From: an uncultured Eubacteriales bacterium
Lineage (GTDB): Bacteria; Bacillota; Clostridia; Christensenellales; CAG-314
Direction of reading: 5' to 3'
DNA length: 44,948 bases
Assembly: GCA_949289125.1 (NCBI GenBank)
Contig: CASEME010000026.1
Coordinates: 1-44,948, forward strand
This document shows positions 201 through 12,101 of the stretch, one piece after another. The notes below the pieces were generated by a model. That model had not been told where the DNA came from, did no database searches, and saw only the letters and a program-made list of their open reading frames with translations. Position 1 is the stretch's first letter. Every line of letters begins with the position of its first letter. The translations under genes and the position numbers were made by a program.

Positions 201-2045
201 TTAGCTTATTACACGTTGAGCTATCACGTATTGGTCGGGCTGCAAGTCCATACCGTCACGGTATGTTCTGCCCGTCAACAAATCTTCGTACACGCCGTTG
301 AAGCACAGTCTAAATACTTCGGAAGAACGATTGACTGCAACAGTCACCTTTTCGCCACTATTGAGACTGCTACGCTCAAAGGCAACAACGCTGTTTTTGC
401 AATACTGCAAAGAGAAGCGTCCTTCTCTGAACACTGCCATGTGGCGCAGTTCGCCCAAACGACGATAGAAGTCCAAAAGCAATTTATTTTCCTTGCCCCA
501 AGGATAACAGCCACGACAGAAGGGATCTTTGTAGCCTTCCATTGCCACTTCGTCGCCGTAAAACACGCAGGGAAAACCGAACATTGTGTATTGCAACACG
601 GCACACATTTTGAGCAACTCTATGCCGTATTTGTATTGCGATTCGCTGAGCTTGCGTTTGCTCATAATATGCTTACTGCTGTTTTCCACACGGTCGCCCG
701 CCAAAGCGGTAAGTATGCGTACTGTGTCGTGCGTACCCAATATGTTCATAAGGTTGTTGCGCACATACAGCGGATAGTTGTTCATAATCATAAACACTAC
801 GCTACGCATTGCATAAGCGTTGCGGTCTCTTACAAAACTGATTATTGCGTCCTTCAACGGATAGTTCATAACGCTATCCAACTGACTGCCGTCAAAGTAT
901 CTGCGTCTTACACCGTAGTCCATCTTATTGGAAGCGTCTTCCCACACTTCTCCGATGATAGCGCATTGAGGATCCTGTTCTTTGGCAGAACGCACAATCT
1001 CGTCCAACATACAATCGGCAATCTCGTCTACTACATCGAGACGCCAACCGGACGCACCACGTTTGAGCCACATAGGTACAATGCCGTTGTCGCCACAGAA
1101 ATACTGTTGAGCACTTTTGCTTGAAGCGTTGATACGGGGAAGGGTATCGAAGTTCCACCAACAGTCGTAGCTTTTGCCGTTGTCGTGGAAGGTGAACCAA
1201 TCTCTGTAAGGTGACTTAGCATCATTGTAAGCGCCACCGTTGCCGTAATTTTTGTTTTTGTTGAAGTACTTGCTGTTGACACCGACGTGATTGAACACAC
1301 CGTCCAAAATGATGTTGATGCCCAATTTGTCCGCCTTTTGACACAGAGCGGTAAAGTCGGCAATGGTACCAAACATACTGTCTACTATTTCGTAGTCTTC
1401 GGTGTCGTACTTGTGATTACTATATGCCTTGAAGATAGGATTGAGGTAGATGGTACGCACATTGAGCGAATGCAAATAGGGTAATTGTTTGATAATACCT
1501 TTCAATGTGCCGCCAAAAAAGTCACGGTTGGTGACGCTACCGTCCTCTTCCTCATAGTAGGGCTGTTCACCCCACTTGCGCATAATTTTGTCCTCGGTGG
1601 GTACGCTTGCACCTACTTGACAAAAACGGTCCACCATAATTTGGTACATAATACCGTTGTTAAGCCAAGAGGGTGTTTGGTATATTTTGTGATATACAGA
1701 CAACTGCCACGGTCGCACGTTTTCGTAATACAATGCCGCTTCGAAGTTGTCGTTGATACCTATATAGTGCTCGTAAGGTACGCCTTCCAAACGGAAGTAG
1801 TACCAATACAAGCCTTTTTTGAGGGAAATTGTGCAAAGGTAATTGTCAAAGCCTGCACCGTTCATGTCTTTGAACATATCGTATTCGGCATGAAAGTCGG
1901 TATCTTCACTATACACTACCACTATTACTTTGGACGGTTGCATACATTCGTTAATTTGCAAACGCAACGCAAACTTTTCATCCTGAGGCACAGCACCCAC
2001 TATACTTTTGTGAAATTCTCGTGTAGGATCAAACTTTACAAGCAT
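201..2045 (-). CDS. GH13 alpha-amylase family enzyme (neopullulanase / maltodextrin hydrolase type)
   Basis: Probable intracellular alpha-glucan hydrolase of about 614 residues, acting on maltodextrins or glycogen fragments. An N-terminal beta-sandwich-like segment of about 120 residues precedes the barrel, as in neopullulanases and cyclomaltodextrinases. The four GH13 signature regions are intact: DGVFNHVG, GWRLDVVDEI (nucleophile Asp), IIGEVWED (acid/base Glu) and NILGTHDTVR. The SNHKYDTEDY motif also fits the neopullulanase-like subfamily. No signal peptide is visible. I chose ATG 2045, which overlaps the glgP stop (TAATG) and has GGAG 8 bases upstream; a TTG at 2057 is possible but sits on the ribosome binding site. 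It is the last gene of the malQ-like-glgB-glgP operon, and translation is probably coupled to glgP. Exact substrate preference cannot be read from sequence. Confidence 0.88.
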   Translation of the reverse strand: MLVKFDPTREFHKSIVGAVPQDEKFALRLQINECMQPSKVIVVVYSEDTDFHAEYDMFKDMNGAGFDNYLCTISLKKGLYWYYFRLEGVPYEHYIGINDNFEAALYYENVRPWQLSVYHKIYQTPSWLNNGIMYQIMVDRFCQVGASVPTEDKIMRKWGEQPYYEEEDGSVTNRDFFGGTLKGIIKQLPYLHSLNVRTIYLNPIFKAYSNHKYDTEDYEIVDSMFGTIADFTALCQKADKLGINIILDGVFNHVGVNSKYFNKNKNYGNGGAYNDAKSPYRDWFTFHDNGKSYDCWWNFDTLPRINASSKSAQQYFCGDNGIVPMWLKRGASGWRLDVVDEIADCMLDEIVRSAKEQDPQCAIIGEVWEDASNKMDYGVRRRYFDGSQLDSVMNYPLKDAIISFVRDRNAYAMRSVVFMIMNNYPLYVRNNLMNILGTHDTVRILTALAGDRVENSSKHIMSKRKLSESQYKYGIELLKMCAVLQYTMFGFPCVFYGDEVAMEGYKDPFCRGCYPWGKENKLLLDFYRRLGELRHMAVFREGRFSLQYCKNSVVAFERSSLNSGEKVTVAVNRSSEVFRLCFNGVYEDLLTGRTYRDGMDLQPDQYVIAQRVIS

Positions 2046-4474
2046 TACATTCTCCAAATTTTCTCTGCATATTCCTTTACAGCTCTGTCAGCAGAAAATC
2101 TGCCGGACTCTGCAATATTTTTCAAAGACATCTGGTTCCAATGTTTTGCGTCTTTGTATGCTTCGTCCATTTTGGCTGTTATTTGCATATAGCTTGCAAA
2201 GTCTGCAAAGCACATATACGGATCTGCCACCTGATTGGAACGCAACAAGTAGTTGGAAATATTTTCAAAAGTTTCTCCGCCAAAACCTCTGTTGAGGTCT
2301 TCAACAATAAGGCGCAGTTTGGGATTTTTGAAATAATAATCGGTAGAGCTGTATCCTCTTCCCCATATATCCTGCACTTGTTTTGCATTCATACCAAAGA
2401 TGAATATGTTGTCCAAACCTACGGCTTCGCTCATCTCGACATTTGCACCGTCCATAGTACCCACTGTCAATGCGCCGTTGATCATAAACTTCATATTGCC
2501 TGTACCACTTGCCTCTTTGCCTGCCAAAGATATCTGTTGGCTGATCTCGGAAGCGGGCATAAGTGCCTCTGCCATAGATACGCAATAGTTTTCCAAAAAT
2601 ACTACGTTTAGCTTTTCGCGTATTTTGGGGTTGCGTTCGAGGTCTTTGCTGATAAGGCAGATAAGTTTGATTACTTCCTTTGCCGTGTAGTAGCTGGGAG
2701 CTGCCTTAGCTGCAAAAATAAATGTCTGAGGAGTTACATCGAGGTCGGGGTTTTCTTTGAGGTCGTGATAGAGAGAAATTATCTTCAACACGTTGAGCAA
2801 CTGACGTTTGTACTCGTGCAGACGTTTTACGTGCACGTCAAAACGTGTGTTGGGATCTATCTTGATACCCGACTTTTTGAAAGTGATATTACTGAAATTG
2901 ACTTTGTTGTGCGTCTTAATCTCGGGCAATGCCTTGAGTACGCTGTCGTCCTGCATAAATTTGTTGAGTTTTTGCAATTCTTTAGCGTCACGTTTGAAAC
3001 CGTCACCGATAAGTTGAGTGATGAGGTCGGACAACTCGGGGTTGCTTTGGCACAGCCATCTTCTGTATGCAATACCGTTGGTGACGTTGTTAAACTTGTT
3101 GGGCTCAAAGTCGTAAAAGTCCTTAAACAAACTTTTGCGGATAATGTCGCTGTGCAACTGCGAAACGCCGTTGACATTGTGTGAGCCTATTACAGACAAG
3201 TTTGCCATACGTACCTGTCCGTATGCAACAATAGCAAGATTGCTTACTTTTGCCCAATCCTTGCACTTATCAAAGTAGTTGCGGCAAGCACGTTCGTTGA
3301 TTTCTACCACAATCTGATAGATACGCGGCAAAACTTTTTTGAAAATATATTCGGGCCAACATTCCAAAGCCTCTGCAAGTACTGTATGGTTGGTGTAAGC
3401 ACAAATACTTTTAACAATATTCCAACTTGTATCCCAATCCATGCGATATTCGTCCACAAATATGCGCATAAGCTCGGGTACAGCCAAAGCAGGGTGCGTA
3501 TCGTTGAGTTGCACTGCTACTTTGTCGGCAAAAGTTTTGAAGTTGCCGTACTGCTTGTAATGGTCGGAAGTGATGCTTTGCATAGCGGCAGACACAAGGA
3601 AGTATTCCTGCTTCAAACGCAAAATTTTGCCTTCTTCGTGGTTGTCGCTGGGGTACAACACTTTGGTGATAAGTTCTGCCTGTGCTTCAGCTTCCATAGC
3701 GCGCATATATTCGCCCTGACTGAAAGCGTGAATATCAAACTTTTTGGTGTTGCGTGCACTCCACAAGCGCAAAACTGCCACATAATCGGTATGATAGCCT
3801 GCAACAACCATATCGTACGGAAAAGCCTCTACTTCGTCATAATTGACAAGCTGATATACTACTCCGCTGTCCGTCATTATTTCCTTCACTTCGCCGCCAA
3901 ACTTGACAGTTGTTGCCTTGTCGGGACGTTCTTTCAACCATATGTGTCCACCAGGCAACCAGTTGTCGGGCAATTCGGTCTGCCAACCGTCTACTATCTT
4001 TTGTTGGAACAAACCGTATTCAAAACGCAAAGAGTGTCCCATAGCGGGATAGTCCTGACTTGCAAGTCCGTCGAGATAGCAAGCCGCAAGTCTGCCCAAT
4101 CCACCGTTGCCCAAACCTGCATCAGGTTCTTGCTCGTACAAGTCTTTGATGTCTACCTTATACTTTTTGAGCACTTCGGCAAAAGTTTCTTCCAAGCCCA
4201 AATTGTACAAGTTGTTTTTGAGGCTGCGTCCCATCAAAAATTCCATGGACAGATAATGTATACGTTTGCGACCTTCTGCCTTAAACTGCTTGTTGATTGC
4301 TTTGCGCTTGGTCAAAAGAATATCACGCACAATCATTGCTACGCATTTGTACATTTGTTGCGGGGTAAGCTCGCTTGCTGCCACGCCATATTCGTTGGCA
4401 GATACCTGTTCCAAGGCTTGTTTGATGGTAGTTTTTGTTTGTGTAGGTACAGACGTTGTGTTGTTGTTAGCCAT
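2045..4474 (-). CDS. glgP: Glycogen/maltodextrin phosphorylase
   Basis: GT35 phosphorylase of 809 residues, the normal family length. It releases glucose-1-phosphate from the non-reducing ends of glycogen or maltodextrin, using pyridoxal phosphate. The cofactor Lys lies in EASGTGNMKFMINGA, followed by GTMDGANVEM. The GNGGLGRLAACYLDG glucan/active-site motif is present near residue 115, and NVTNGIAYRRWL is also intact. It sits third in the operon after glgB, 64 bases downstream of it, and overlaps the start of the amylase gene. The ribosome binding site (GAGGGAG) is about 11 bases from the ATG, slightly long. Cytoplasmic. Sequence alone does not separate glycogen from maltodextrin preference, but the neighbouring branching enzyme favours glycogen. 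Confidence 0.96.
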   Translation of the reverse strand: MANNNTTSVPTQTKTTIKQALEQVSANEYGVAASELTPQQMYKCVAMIVRDILLTKRKAINKQFKAEGRKRIHYLSMEFLMGRSLKNNLYNLGLEETFAEVLKKYKVDIKDLYEQEPDAGLGNGGLGRLAACYLDGLASQDYPAMGHSLRFEYGLFQQKIVDGWQTELPDNWLPGGHIWLKERPDKATTVKFGGEVKEIMTDSGVVYQLVNYDEVEAFPYDMVVAGYHTDYVAVLRLWSARNTKKFDIHAFSQGEYMRAMEAEAQAELITKVLYPSDNHEEGKILRLKQEYFLVSAAMQSITSDHYKQYGNFKTFADKVAVQLNDTHPALAVPELMRIFVDEYRMDWDTSWNIVKSICAYTNHTVLAEALECWPEYIFKKVLPRIYQIVVEINERACRNYFDKCKDWAKVSNLAIVAYGQVRMANLSVIGSHNVNGVSQLHSDIIRKSLFKDFYDFEPNKFNNVTNGIAYRRWLCQSNPELSDLITQLIGDGFKRDAKELQKLNKFMQDDSVLKALPEIKTHNKVNFSNITFKKSGIKIDPNTRFDVHVKRLHEYKRQLLNVLKIISLYHDLKENPDLDVTPQTFIFAAKAAPSYYTAKEVIKLICLISKDLERNPKIREKLNVVFLENYCVSMAEALMPASEISQQISLAGKEASGTGNMKFMINGALTVGTMDGANVEMSEAVGLDNIFIFGMNAKQVQDIWGRGYSSTDYYFKNPKLRLIVEDLNRGFGGETFENISNYLLRSNQVADPYMCFADFASYMQITAKMDEAYKDAKHWNQMSLKNIAESGRFSADRAVKEYAEKIWRM

Positions 4475-4538: not shown

Positions 4539-6413
4539 TTATTTGTCGCTTTTGGATTTTGCTTTGGGTTTTGCAGGTGCTTTGGTGTAGTAATACTGCA
4601 CACTGCTTGCAGGTATTGTAAGCTCTGCGTATCCTTCGGCATTGGTGCTGAACTTTTGTGCCACACCCACGTTGCGACCGTCGTACTGACTATCGTCACT
4701 GTTGATGATAAGCTCGTAATCGCCAGGCGTCATATAGTATCCGTATTTATAATAGTCATAACTTGAGAAGTTGATAACTACCATTACTTTGTTGCCCTGC
4801 TTGTCGATACGTTCGAAAGACAAAACACTGTTGCGAGCATCATCGGCAAGTAACCAATGAAAACCTTCCCAATTTTGGTCGTTTTGATACAAAGGTTTGT
4901 ATTTTTTGTACACTTTGTTGAGTTCAGCTACAAAATTTTGGTGTGCCTGATGCTTAGGATAAGCAAGCAACATCCAATCCAGCTCTCTATCTTCCGACCA
5001 CTCGTTCCACTGCGCAAGCTCGCCACCCATAAAGTTGAGCTTTTTGCCGGGGTGAGCATACTGATAACCGAGCAATGCCTTGAGCTGTCTAAACTTGCTG
5101 TCGTAGTCGCCAAACATCTTGTTGATAAGCGAGCCTTTGAGATGCACTACTTCGTCGTGCGAAAGGGGCAACACAAAGTTTTCCGTATATGCGTAGCACA
5201 TAGAGAAGGTGAGCTGATTGTGATGATGATAGCGATACAAAGTATCCGTCTTCATATAGCTCAATACGTCGTTCATCCAACCCATATTCCACTTGAAGTT
5301 GAAGCCCAGACCGCCTACGTATGTCGGGTGAGTAACTTTGGGGAATGCGGTAGATTCTTCCGCAATAAACAACGCATAGGGGAACTCGTCAAACAGACGG
5401 TAGGACAAACTTTGCAACATCTCAATAGCTTCGAGATTTTCCTTGCCACCCCACTTGTTGGGACGCCATTCGCCGTCCTTGCGGTCATAGTCGAGATAGA
5501 GCATACTTGCCACTGCGTCTACACGCAAACCGTCAAAGTGGAACTCTCTCATCCAATACATTGCGTTGCTTATAAGGAAACTGCGTACTTCGTAGCGAGA
5601 GTAGTCAAATACTCTTGTACCCCAAGACTTGTGCTCCTTTTTGAAGTCGTCTGCCGATTCGTAACAGCAAGTGCCGTCAAACTCGTACAAACCGTGTGCG
5701 TCCTTGCAAAAATGAGCAGGTACCCAATCGAGTATAACGCCTATGCCGTTTTTGTGGCACTCGTTGATAAGATATCTCAAGTCGTCAGGTGTACCGTAGC
5801 GACTTGTGGGCGCATAAAAACCGGTAACCTGATAGCCCCACGAGCCGTCAAAAGGATGCTCTGCCAACGGCATAAACTCAATATGCGTATAATTCATCTT
5901 TTTGACATAAGGAACAAGCCATTTGACAAGATCTCTGTAGCTGTACAATCTGCCATCGTAGTGTCTGCGCCACGAACCGGCGTGTACTTCATAAATATTG
6001 ATGGGTGACTTGTAGAGGTCTGTCTTTTTTTGCTTGTCTATCCACTCATCGTCCGTCCACTTAAATGACGGATCTTTGTCATAAACAATACTTGCCGTCT
6101 TGGGACGTACCTCACTATATGTGCCGTAAGGATCGGCTTTGTACAATACTGTACCATACTGTGTAGTAATAGCATACTTGTACCTGTCGCCAACTTTGAC
6201 GCCCGAAAGCGTAAGTTGCCATATGCCGTCTTCCAACTGCAATGCGTCATGATTGACCAACCAGTTGTTGAAATCGCCAACTACCGATACTGCCTTGGCG
6301 TTGGGTGCCCATACAGAAAAACGGTACGTCTCGTCTGCTACTTTGTGACAACCCAACAATTCGTATGCGTTGTCGCAGTTACCGCTATAAAACTCCGTAA
6401 ACCTATGTGCCAT
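4539..6413 (-). CDS. glgB: 1,4-alpha-glucan branching enzyme
   Basis: GH13 branching enzyme of 624 residues that introduces alpha-1,6 branches into glycogen. An N-terminal CBM48 domain (about 20-110, with YRFSVWAPNAKAVSVVGDFN) precedes the barrel. The signature regions are intact: DWVPAHF, GLRVDAVASMLY (nucleophile Asp), FIAEEST (acid/base Glu) and LPLSHDEVVH. The C-terminal beta domain ends in a Lys-rich tail (KAPAKPKAKSKSDK) not needed for the fold. The start at 6413 has AAGGAG eight bases upstream. It follows the malQ-like gene by 33 bases and precedes glgP by 64. No glgC or glgA lies in the window, so the synthesis genes must be elsewhere. Confidence 0.96.
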   Translation of the reverse strand: MAHRFTEFYSGNCDNAYELLGCHKVADETYRFSVWAPNAKAVSVVGDFNNWLVNHDALQLEDGIWQLTLSGVKVGDRYKYAITTQYGTVLYKADPYGTYSEVRPKTASIVYDKDPSFKWTDDEWIDKQKKTDLYKSPINIYEVHAGSWRRHYDGRLYSYRDLVKWLVPYVKKMNYTHIEFMPLAEHPFDGSWGYQVTGFYAPTSRYGTPDDLRYLINECHKNGIGVILDWVPAHFCKDAHGLYEFDGTCCYESADDFKKEHKSWGTRVFDYSRYEVRSFLISNAMYWMREFHFDGLRVDAVASMLYLDYDRKDGEWRPNKWGGKENLEAIEMLQSLSYRLFDEFPYALFIAEESTAFPKVTHPTYVGGLGFNFKWNMGWMNDVLSYMKTDTLYRYHHHNQLTFSMCYAYTENFVLPLSHDEVVHLKGSLINKMFGDYDSKFRQLKALLGYQYAHPGKKLNFMGGELAQWNEWSEDRELDWMLLAYPKHQAHQNFVAELNKVYKKYKPLYQNDQNWEGFHWLLADDARNSVLSFERIDKQGNKVMVVINFSSYDYYKYGYYMTPGDYELIINSDDSQYDGRNVGVAQKFSTNAEGYAELTIPASSVQYYYTKAPAKPKAKSKSDK

Positions 6414-6446: not shown

Positions 6447-7895
6447 TCAACAACCGCTGTCTTTGGGTTGTGGGCTACGGTAAGCCTTTTGTGTAAGTTC
6501 GGCAAGTCGTTTTGCCGTGTTGTTGGAAAAGTCGCTGTCACAAAACATAGGAGAGTCGTTGTGCCTGTTGTAACCCCATTGTATGAGGTCTTGCATAGCC
6601 ACAACGGCAACTTGTGCATCTGTAACGGCGAGTAAGCTAAGCATCTGCCAATTTACGTCGGCTTGCATATTGAGATTGAGAACTTTACGCAGTTTGCGCC
6701 GAGTTATCCAAGACGACCTTATCCACCACTTGTATGCACTGTCTTTGCCCTCTGTACACACATAGGCAAAACAGTCTTTATTGATATTAAACATTGTGTT
6801 GCGCTTTGCTGAGCGCACTACCTGCTGTATAGAACGACATGTTGCAACGCCACAGCTTGGTGCAAAGTTGACAAGGCTCTTTTTGGTACTAAAACAAAAG
6901 CCTGCCGCCAACTGCAACTCAGGTGCCTCTTGTCGCCAAACATCAACTACAGCTTTGCCAGCACCCTTAAGCCATATACCTCTCCACGAATCTGCTTTGT
7001 CTGCGTTGATGGCAAAGCAAGCACTCAGTGTCTCAAAGTGGTCGATGATTATTGAGTCGTACATAGCGGCACATTGTGCAATGCGCTGTCTAAACCAATT
7101 ATAACCGTCCATTCGCATAGCTTGCCAATTAAACGGAATGAATATATTTCTTTGATCGGATATCTTTTTATCTTTGATACGCAATTTGCGTCTTGGTTGA
7201 CCGTTGGGCTTGAGTGCAAACAACTGTCTGTGTGCCCACACGTCCGCACTATCGTACTCTACAAGTAACTCCGTCTCACCGATAAGTTTGATACCGTTAT
7301 CTTTGAGCACCGTGCGCATATCTTGCCACTGACAATAAAAGGTATATTGACAAAACTTATGGTACTCTATATTTTTGGACAGCAATTCGGAATATCTGAG
7401 TATTGCCTCGTCTTGACGGTTGCGAATATCTTCTGGCCAATTATACCAAGGCAAACCTTTGAAGTGATGTTTGAGTGCAACAAACAATGCAAAGTCATCC
7501 AACCAATATTTGTTGTCTATTACAAACTGATTGTACTTTTGCGGCGGTGTCTCACGGTAAAAACTTTCAAATGCGGCAAGCAATGCCTGCTCGCGCACAT
7601 TCCACTCCACAAAACGTCTTTGGTGAGTGGATGGCTGTTTGCTTTTGGTATCTATTGTTGCCACTGTATCGGATAGTTTGTCGGTGTCGATAAGCGAAAT
7701 ATCCCAGCCAAACACCGAGCATACACCGCTCACCTCACCGTCCTCATAGTGCACAGCACTGACGGGAGCTATCTGCCAATAGCTCTGTTCGGCTTTTTTC
7801 AAAAAACGGACAAAACGGACGGCATCGATCAATGTACTTACACCCCAGTTGTTGGGCAAACTGTCAATAGGCATCAAAACACCGCTAAGACGCAT
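6447..7895 (-). CDS. MalQ-like GH77 homologue, probably catalytically inactive
   Basis: First gene of the glycogen operon; 482 residues, normal for 4-alpha-glucanotransferase (MalQ). Recognisable landmarks are GVLMPIDSLPNNWGVST, the FLKKAEQSYWQIAPV strand, LVEYDSADVWAHRQLF and SIIIDHFETL (Asp285, the nucleophile position). Other key residues are gone. The acid/base Glu of the usual AEDLG motif reads AAGFC (Ala331). The usual THDND motif reads TEGKD (residues 381-385), losing the His and the third catalytic Asp. The SPYQ loop and the GVPPDxFSxxGQxWGNP loop are replaced, and Arg before the nucleophile is Ile. The frame is open throughout, so this is a maintained protein, not a decayed gene. A glucan-binding, scaffold or regulatory role is inference. 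I chose ATG 7895 because GGAG lies 9 bases before it; the in-frame TTG at 7910 lacks a site. Confidence 0.75.
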   Translation of the reverse strand: MRLSGVLMPIDSLPNNWGVSTLIDAVRFVRFLKKAEQSYWQIAPVSAVHYEDGEVSGVCSVFGWDISLIDTDKLSDTVATIDTKSKQPSTHQRRFVEWNVREQALLAAFESFYRETPPQKYNQFVIDNKYWLDDFALFVALKHHFKGLPWYNWPEDIRNRQDEAILRYSELLSKNIEYHKFCQYTFYCQWQDMRTVLKDNGIKLIGETELLVEYDSADVWAHRQLFALKPNGQPRRKLRIKDKKISDQRNIFIPFNWQAMRMDGYNWFRQRIAQCAAMYDSIIIDHFETLSACFAINADKADSWRGIWLKGAGKAVVDVWRQEAPELQLAAGFCFSTKKSLVNFAPSCGVATCRSIQQVVRSAKRNTMFNINKDCFAYVCTEGKDSAYKWWIRSSWITRRKLRKVLNLNMQADVNWQMLSLLAVTDAQVAVVAMQDLIQWGYNRHNDSPMFCDSDFSNNTAKRLAELTQKAYRSPQPKDSGC

Positions 7896-7944
7896 TGTCA
7901 CATTCTCCAATACTCAGATAATAGTTGCTAACGACACAAAAAAA

Positions 7945-8007
7945 CGCCGATAATATATTACCATTTTACTGCAATAAATGCAAGTCGTTTGGCAAAATTT
8001 ATCGGTG
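7945..8007 (-). terminator. Inverted repeat enclosing the glycogen promoter, possible terminator of the YhhN gene
   Basis: CGCCGATAA (7945-7953) can pair with TTATCGGTG (7999-8007), with one G-U. On the minus strand the stem is followed by seven T, so transcripts from the YhhN gene could end here. The 45-base loop is long for a terminator and contains the complete glycogen promoter, so the arms could also be a DNA operator. Confidence 0.4.
7955..7983 (-). promoter_or_regulatory. Promoter of the glycogen operon
   Basis: On the minus strand TTGCAT (7983-7978), a 17-base spacer and TAATAT (7960-7955) form a good sigma-A promoter. The predicted start is near 7948, giving a leader of about 50 bases to the malQ-like ATG. 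The whole promoter lies in the loop of the inverted repeat at 7945-8007. Confidence 0.65.
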
Positions 8008-10564: not shown

Positions 10565-10912
10565 CTATTCTTCGTAAGATTGCACGTTGGTGCCGTTGCT
10601 CCACAATACGTCTAACGCGTACACCTGTCTTGCGTCTTTATGAAAAATGTGCACTATCACTTCGCCGTAGTCAACGGCAATCCATCTGCCTTCACGTACA
10701 CCCTCACAGCGCAACGCCACAACGCCCGCCTTTTCCATTGTTTCATCAAGGTGGTCGTACAATGCCTTAACCTGTGGCATACTGCGTCCCGAACACACTA
10801 CAAAGTAATCGGCAATGTCAGTCATACCCTTGATGTCAACTATTTTGATGTCCTCTGCTTTTTTGTCCGCAAGACACTTGCATATAGTCTTTACAGTTTC
10901 GTTTTGAATCAT
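10565..10912 (-). CDS. rsfS: Ribosome silencing factor RsfS
   Basis: Iojap/DUF143 family protein of 115 residues, normal length. Family members bind ribosomal protein L14 and block subunit joining during slow growth. Diagnostic stretches are DIADYFVVCSGRS, the RCEGVREGRWIAVDYG strand pair and VIVHIFHKDAR. The start codon overlaps the nadD-yqeK stop (ATGA), with GGAGG 11 bases upstream, so the two genes form one transcript and are coupled in translation. nadD-yqeK-rsfS is a standard Bacillota order. Confidence 0.96.
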   Translation of the reverse strand: MIQNETVKTICKCLADKKAEDIKIVDIKGMTDIADYFVVCSGRSMPQVKALYDHLDETMEKAGVVALRCEGVREGRWIAVDYGEVIVHIFHKDARQVYALDVLWSNGTNVQSYEE

Positions 10913-12033
10913 TTAACTTTGTCCTCCGTTGTATTTGTGTACTTCTCATAATATTGAATAGCTTCAAGCGTCAAGGGGCTTGTAGCTCTGTTTCGCTTTA
11001 GACACACTTCATATGCCTCAATAAGCACTGCCAAAAAAGTTGCTTCCAAACTGTTTTTTACAAGGTGCTGTGTAGGATATGGGCGCGATTGCTCTATCTT
11101 GTCTGCAACATATACTACCATATCGAGCTCCGTCATATCAGGTCTGCCCGTTGTATGATATTTTATTGCGTCCAAAATTGTTTTGTTACTCACGCCAAAA
11201 TCCTTTTGCGCCACAATAGCACCCAAAAAGGCGTGCACTACAGGCTCTGGCAAATTGTCGTCATTTTTAAAGTTGTACAAGCTGTACTCATCTTTGCCTA
11301 TATACTTTGCACAATCGTGCAATGTACAGGCTACAAAAATATCTTGTTCTGAACATTTACTTTTGAGTTGCAAACCCACTTTTGTTACATAAAACGTATG
11401 GCTGTAACGCTTGGGCGTAAGATAACTTTGCAATTTGCTCGTCATTGGTCTGTACTCGCAAAACAGACCGTTGCGCTTTATATACTCGTCCACCTCTTGC
11501 GGCACTTCGTTGACATCCATACCGTACTGATATTTAAGCCGTATCTCCGTAGACGAATAGTCAGTAGCGTCAAGCTGTATGCTGACTATGTTCATACCGT
11601 ATTGACTTACACAATGTTGCTTTGCATTGGACAGATCTACGCCCTTGCGCTCTGCCACTGCAAAAGTTACCAACTTGGCAAGTTCATCTGGGCAATGCCA
11701 ACTGTCATAGTCACGCAAACTGTCGCCACCTATTATGAGAAAAAGCTGTGCGGACGGATAGCGACTTTTTATATATTTTACAGTATCGAGCGTATAGTTC
11801 GGCTTGTCGCTGTCTATCTCGTAAGGCTCTATCTCGACCGGCAAGTGCGCAAACGCCAACTTTGCCATGTCCATACGTTTTGCCTTATCAACAAAACACA
11901 GTTTGTGCGTAGGCTGACCGCACGGAACGACGAGCAACTTGTCCAAATTGAGCTGACGTACAGCCTGATTGGCAATCTCAACGTGCGTTTTGTGCGGAGG
12001 GTTGAACGTACCTCCGAAAATTGCTACTTTCAT
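10909..12033 (-). CDS. nadD: Fused NaMN adenylyltransferase (NadD) and YqeK HD-domain hydrolase
   Basis: Two-domain protein of 374 residues. Residues 1 to about 190 are NadD, which makes nicotinate adenine dinucleotide in NAD synthesis: GGTFNPPHKTH nucleotidyltransferase motif, LFLIIGGDSLRDYDSW and the C-terminal SSTEIR motif. From about 200 is a YqeK-type HD domain (RYSHTFYV, LHDCAKYI, later YVADKIEQSR), a family that cleaves diadenosine tetraphosphate symmetrically. In most Bacillota these are adjacent separate genes. I start at ATG 12033 because the preceding in-frame codons do not fit NadD. No ribosome binding site exists; the promoter places the transcript start on this ATG. Confidence 0.93.
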   Translation of the reverse strand: MKVAIFGGTFNPPHKTHVEIANQAVRQLNLDKLLVVPCGQPTHKLCFVDKAKRMDMAKLAFAHLPVEIEPYEIDSDKPNYTLDTVKYIKSRYPSAQLFLIIGGDSLRDYDSWHCPDELAKLVTFAVAERKGVDLSNAKQHCVSQYGMNIVSIQLDATDYSSTEIRLKYQYGMDVNEVPQEVDEYIKRNGLFCEYRPMTSKLQSYLTPKRYSHTFYVTKVGLQLKSKCSEQDIFVACTLHDCAKYIGKDEYSLYNFKNDDNLPEPVVHAFLGAIVAQKDFGVSNKTILDAIKYHTTGRPDMTELDMVVYVADKIEQSRPYPTQHLVKNSLEATFLAVLIEAYEVCLKRNRATSPLTLEAIQYYEKYTNTTEDKVK

Positions 12034-12039
12034 ATTTAT

Positions 12040-12068
12040 ATTGTACATTATTTTGCATTGTTTTTCAA
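12040..12068 (-). promoter_or_regulatory. nadD-yqeK promoter, predicting a leaderless transcript
   Basis: Minus-strand TTGAAA (12068-12063), 17-base spacer, TACAAT (12045-12040). The ATG at 12033 begins seven bases after the -10 box, the usual distance to a transcription start, and there is no Shine-Dalgarno sequence. Confidence 0.6.
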
Positions 12069-12101
12069 TTAAAAACACACTTTTGTGTCAATAATTTTGG
12101 T

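Follow-up and report, generated by a model that had tools for sequence, protein, structure and literature searches.

Why should a glycogen operon begin with a full-length MalQ homologue from which most of the catalytic machinery has gone? The question is raised by the gene at 6447..7895 (minus strand) of the window, by which we mean the whole stretch of 44,948 nucleotides of an uncultured Eubacteriales bacterium that was analysed. Our preferred answer, to which we give a probability of roughly one half, is that the operonic MalQ stopped being an enzyme and was kept as a non-catalytic partner, probably a subunit of the glycogen phosphorylase GlgP, with a second MalQ carrying the transferase activity.

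The operon gene and its predicted fold

The gene encodes 482 aa, from the ATG at 7895 to the stop at 6449-6447, and its product, a catalytically degenerate GH77/MalQ homologue, is here called pseudo-MalQ. A sequence-only reading of this DNA had placed a full-length MalQ homologue at the head of a glycogen operon; its coordinates were right, and the strand, which it left unstated, is the minus strand. In terms of family membership, pseudo-MalQ covers nearly the full PF02446 profile (1-443 of 465) at 1.5e-75 and 255 bits, above the curated Pfam cut-off of 25. It falls far below the NCBIfam cut-offs for 4-alpha-glucanotransferase (286 vs 477 bits). Matches in the PDB are 1tz7 (6.9e-49) and 2x1i (4.7e-46), and PHROGs gave no match.

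The earlier reading had proposed a structure prediction aligned to an amylomaltase. The AlphaFold2 model, built on an alignment of mostly intact homologues, reaches pLDDT 81.6 and pTM 0.85, and it superposes on amylomaltases with Z about 40 (40.5 to 1tz7) and an rmsd of 2.3-2.4 over about 460 residues. The amylomaltase fold is thereby predicted for pseudo-MalQ, and the protein presumably folds.

The operon has four genes on the minus strand. Pseudo-MalQ is followed after 33 nt by glgB (branching enzyme, 4539..6413), then after 64 nt by glgP (glycogen/starch phosphorylase, 2045..4474), both assigned from ORFs and profile matches; glgP overlaps by 13 nt the last gene, a GH13 alpha-amylase family enzyme (201..2057). 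A GGAG ribosome binding site (7905..7908) lies 9 nt before the ATG. The intact frame, first position and good ribosome binding site noted from the sequence were all confirmed.

Upstream we found an operon promoter with an extended -10, TTGCAT-17 nt-TGG-TAATAT (7955..7983, minus strand), the sole match to this motif in the window (0.02 expected). A promoter scan of the window at default thresholds missed it; it was revealed by an alignment, and relatives carry the same motif upstream of operonic malQ, intact copies included. RNA structure upstream of the gene was not significant (z = -1.4). The upstream neighbours are a YhhN-family gene and an EamA transporter, syntenic in several relatives, and the order YhhN/malQ/glgB/glgP/GH13 is conserved across the window genome's family. 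Further along, at 10909-12078 (minus strand), a long ORF resembles, by eye only, a nicotinate-nucleotide adenylyltransferase joined to an HD-domain protein (NadD-YqeK type).

As for the rest of glycogen synthesis, the window genome (G000; 1.33 Mb, 92% complete) has no GlgA or GlgC above the family cut-off, and relatives have glgC-glgD-glgA. Both genes may be lost or may be missing from the assembly. Two of the relatives discussed below, G006 and G014, have GlgA and no GlgC match.

Catalytic residues, substrate loops and the second MalQ

Residue equivalences are given in Thermus numbering, read off the alignment with pseudo-MalQ; the catalytic residues D293, E340 and D395 and the loop definitions of GH77 are taken from PMC8465469. 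D285 (7041..7043) aligns with the nucleophile D293 and is kept within IIIDHFE, as had been proposed. The position of the acid/base E340 falls on A331 or G332 (6900..6905), depending on the register and never on an acid; the earlier reading had reported Ala here (AAGFC for AEDLG). The position of the transition-state stabiliser D395 is occupied by G383 (6747..6749) and that of H394 by E382, which bears out the substitution of TEGKD for THDND. No other acidic residue replaces E340 or D395 in the alignment. In addition, I283 stands for R291, and H286 and D215 are retained.

The substrate loops tell a similar story. The SPYQ segment and the 250s loop (GVPPDYFS..GQLWGNP), already reported as lost, are indeed absent, with residues about 236-253 (7137..7190) as a remnant of the latter without its motif, and the RMNxPG motif of the 460s loop is gone as well. 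The whole active-site half, residues about 238-394 (6714..7184), is degraded and keeps 30% of the conserved residues. Taking 24 intact operonic MalQ orthologues as reference, pseudo-MalQ keeps 5 of the 26 listed cleft residues, compared with 90 of the 170 other positions conserved at 95% or more (Fisher p = 0.0014). Pseudo-MalQ is therefore like the GH77 amylomaltases (MalQ; Thermus, Aquifex; PF02446) in length, predicted fold and glg neighbourhood, and what sets it apart is the absence of the SPYQ, 250s and 460s loops and of two catalytic residues out of three. On this evidence from the alignment, it is well supported that pseudo-MalQ would not act as a transferase, as the sequence-only reading had concluded.

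A second GH77 gene is present in the same genome, on contig C17 and among GH13 genes. It scores 512 bits and has RIDHFRG, AEDLG and THDN intact, so the degenerate copy has a paralogue that is active as judged by its sequence.

We surveyed 41 genomes of the family, most of which have one GH77. The family includes Candidatus Limihabitans stercoravium. Two GH77 genes (the second a full or partial set) were found in four genomes from three genera: the window genome, G003, and the yak caecum and goat colon MAGs G006 and G014. Each of the four has its dead, low-scoring copy (143-255 bits) in the glg operon and its intact copy (429-559 bits) elsewhere. Among genomes with a single GH77, every operonic copy examined has the full triad but one, that of G029 (L079:4204-5667). 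There the motif reads THNND, a D395N change in a MalQ that is intact in all other respects; the genome has no further GH77, and a sequence error is possible. A different arrangement is seen in G007 of genus g8 (L181:5227-12135), where glgB-glgP-GH13 follow a gene in the YhhN position, malQ is absent and a second MalQ is present.

In terms of the search itself, genome contigs queried with pseudo-MalQ alone gave no match, and names and neighbourhoods were obtained with the operon GH13. Three MAGs of the family (L080, L083, L087) are labelled Candidatus Fimimonas (NCBI: Myxococcaceae) or Corallococcus sp.; this placement looks wrong, since in both glg operon and MalQ they agree with the Clostridia family.

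Beyond the family, 396 genomes of the order and 393 of the class were surveyed for GH77, with counts of degenerate copies being lower bounds. At least three degenerate copies coexist with an intact second copy in the same genome: L159 (G283), which adjoins glgB and glgP, L157 (G132) and L160 (G166). Another degenerate GH77, without any catalytic residue, is L163:6679-8115 (G555), the only GH77 of its genome among the matches listed; its neighbours are a helicase-like ORF and peptide transporter genes, with no glycogen genes nearby.

Signs of selection after the loss of catalysis

The main rival to a retained partner, which we consider rather unlikely, is decay through redundancy. The second MalQ would have taken over and the operonic gene would be on its way out, its frame held for now by chance or because its translation is coupled to that of glgB. 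Three observations fit this explanation. Dead copies evolve fast, with tree branches of 2.7-4.7 against 0.20 for the operon partners; the spacing between malQ and glgB is tight in relatives; and operonic malQ is completely deleted in G007, which implies that the gene can be dispensed with once the genome has a second MalQ and leaves decay as a live explanation.

On the other hand, the frames are intact in four divergent copies, and neutral drift to such divergence yields many stops. Simulated drift to about 43% identity produced a mean of 15 stops, and none of 300 runs was free of them, so the open frame of pseudo-MalQ is not due to chance. That the frame is still intact at about a third identity rules out a long period of neutral drift and leaves room for very recent relaxation.

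Selection could be measured in the dead pair G006-G014 of genus g7, where dN/dS is 0.20 at dS 1.3 (2dlnL = 109 against 1) long after the loss. The operon partners give 0.07-0.09 and the active second MalQ 0.13. The pairs G000-G010, G010-G015 and G016-G024 were left out, as their dS is saturated. Purifying selection after catalytic loss is thus seen in the g7 pair; the window copy has an intact frame and no close relative in the sets, so that selection on it is deduced from sister lineages.

The pattern of constraint also argues against decay, as it is inverted rather than uniformly relaxed. Cleft residues bear the brunt of the loss, which in all four dead copies is heavier there than at other conserved residues. 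The best kept part is a helical segment, residues 120-198 (7302..7538, minus strand), with modelled helices at 119-127, 129-144, 162-171 and 173-199. Of the residues that intact operonic MalQs conserve, the four dead copies keep 58-69% at reference residues 121-200 and 14-30% in the active-site half (reference residues 241-400). Active MalQ controls from outside the reference set keep 40-62% and 55-71%, respectively; the helical segment is thus better kept in all four dead copies than in nearly all active controls.

Between G006 and G014, identity is 0.71 in the helical segment and 0.49 in the active-site half (p = 0.0017), and none of the 253 intact operonic pairs has the helical segment more alike than the active-site half. 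These p-values are descriptive, because pairs are non-independent and the region borders were set after viewing the windowed profile. Degenerate GH77s elsewhere have the same inversion in weaker form (ratio 1.0-2.8). It is possible that the helical segment is kept purely to hold the fold. We propose it as the seat of the retained function.

The dN/dS of 0.20 in a dead pair, the inverted constraint in four dead copies and the conserved promoter together support a selected function, which the earlier reading had argued from the gene itself and which is carried mainly by the sister lineages. The dead copies appear to be under selection and not simply rotting.

As for the number of losses, catalysis was probably lost independently in the family, at least twice and probably three times, given that the substitutions differ, that the tree of partner genes disagrees and that shared derived states are at background level. 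The window copy keeps the nucleophile alone, G003 has lost all three residues, and G006 and G014 keep the Glu and have E or Q at the nucleophile; loop deletions vary too. Orthologues with the same substitutions in glg operons had been suggested as a check, and here dead operonic copies were indeed found, although with other substitutions. In the tree of GlgB + GlgP + GH13, the window genome groups with genus g11, which has intact operonic MalQ (support 100/98), followed by g3, also intact, with g7 outside.

The alternative is one ancient dead allele, common to the four genomes by descent or transfer, and we find it improbable. A first GH77 tree placed the window copy beside the g7 copies, which we read as long branches meeting; without the other dead copies it falls in the operonic clade of g3 and g11 (100/98.7), and a grouping with only g11 is narrowly rejected (p = 0.04). 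The four dead copies as one clade are not rejected by the AU test (p = 0.30), and all four carry P for H at position 9 and T for G at position 356. Against a single allele, the partner-gene tree disagrees, loop deletions and catalytic substitutions differ, and the window copy shares only 0.07-0.17 of derived states with other dead copies, where unrelated degenerate GH77s share 0.11-0.14 and a true sister pair 0.45. A single origin would not change the functional reading.

A glucan-binding scaffold, one of the roles put forward in the sequence-only reading, is distinctly improbable. Such a non-catalytic protein would bind glycogen or maltodextrin, and recruit or sense. It would have GH77 ancestry behind it, a Tyr at residue 51 aligned with Y54 of the secondary glucan site, and a precedent in BAM4, which is inactive and yet binds amylose (PMC12892837). 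However, what all four dead copies have lost is the cleft together with the 250s and 460s loops, from which GH77 builds its primary glucan site and part of its secondary one (PMC8465469). A new activity rebuilt around D285 is very unlikely: the window protein still has D285, H286 and D215, but E340 and D395 have no acidic replacement, and in the other dead orthologues E, Q or N takes the place of the nucleophile and the Glu partly survives, which leaves no common catalytic set.

A candidate partner in glycogen phosphorylase

If pseudo-MalQ was kept as a non-catalytic partner, the following course may be proposed. MalQ and GlgP would normally sit together, with maltodextrins passing between both. 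The presence of a second MalQ would make the active site of the operonic MalQ redundant, and the face contacting GlgP, probably including the helical segment at about 120-198, would still be needed for the assembly, stability or activity of GlgP.

The choice of GlgP is suggested, indirectly, by operon order, by MalQ-GlgP fusions and by a plant complex. L030 carries a single-chain fusion with GH77 N-terminal to GT35, and the six long ORFs that were checked all proved to be of this type; such fusions come from six genomes of the order and class. These proteins (L030, L175-L180) are single ORFs of 1259-1401 aa with an intact GH77 triad, from several families, and no name for proteins of this type was found in the literature searched. 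They combine the same two families in an N-to-C order equal to the gene order here; in contrast to pseudo-MalQ, their GH77 is catalytically intact and part of one polypeptide. MalQ and GlgP are thus encoded in the same operon in the window and fused in relatives. The fusions fit channelling between two active enzymes, from which contact of separate chains does not follow.

In plants, PHO1 joins DPE1 in a complex whose activity is altered (PMC5417683; PMC12892837), and a DPE1 and a phosphorylase chain are both present in each of the PDB entries 9lpw, 9lpz and 9m80. There, as proposed here, a GH77 protein acts with a GT35 phosphorylase; in the window the genes of both share an operon, and in related Clostridia they are fused. 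Plant DPE1, however, is catalytically active in the complex, and contact of pseudo-MalQ with GlgP is putative. The earlier suggestion of a regulator or scaffold of GlgB/GlgP is accordingly plausible for GlgP, from the natural fusions and from PHO1-DPE1.

GlgB and GH13 are the alternative partners. GH13 is considered because GH13-GH77 fusions also exist in other Clostridia (L168, L169, L170), each as one ORF of 1068-1121 aa whose GH13 part is homologous to the window gene at 201-2057. For GlgB, a joint malQ-glgB read-through chain was modelled with AlphaFold2 as a crude contact test; the result was of low confidence (pLDDT 55, pTM 0.45, 11 alignment rows) and does not count against contact.

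A broader version, which we hold tentatively, is that the operonic MalQ always had a structural or regulatory role in GlgP assembly besides catalysis. Catalysis would have been shed repeatedly where a second MalQ was present, exposing a conserved non-catalytic GH77 face that matters for phosphorylase function, perhaps the one used in the plant PHO1-DPE1 complex.

Plant starch metabolism offers known cases of non-catalytic paralogues, namely ISA2, BAM4 and BAM9. Like pseudo-MalQ, ISOAMYLASE 2 (GH13) and BAM4/BAM9 (GH14) have a glucan-active fold without catalytic residues beside an active paralogue; they differ in being plant proteins of other families, with partners and phenotypes known. No non-catalytic paralogue of GH77, or in a bacterial glycogen operon, was found in the open literature searched, which is weak evidence.

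In terms of annotation, a PF02446 match or the automatic name “4-alpha-glucanotransferase” is no proof of activity. For the biology of the family, the repeated loss of catalysis with inverted constraint amounts to an experiment of nature in which the catalytic face of MalQ is set apart from the non-catalytic one. The dead copies make it testable whether bacterial MalQ and GlgP form a complex, as plant PHO1 and DPE1 do.
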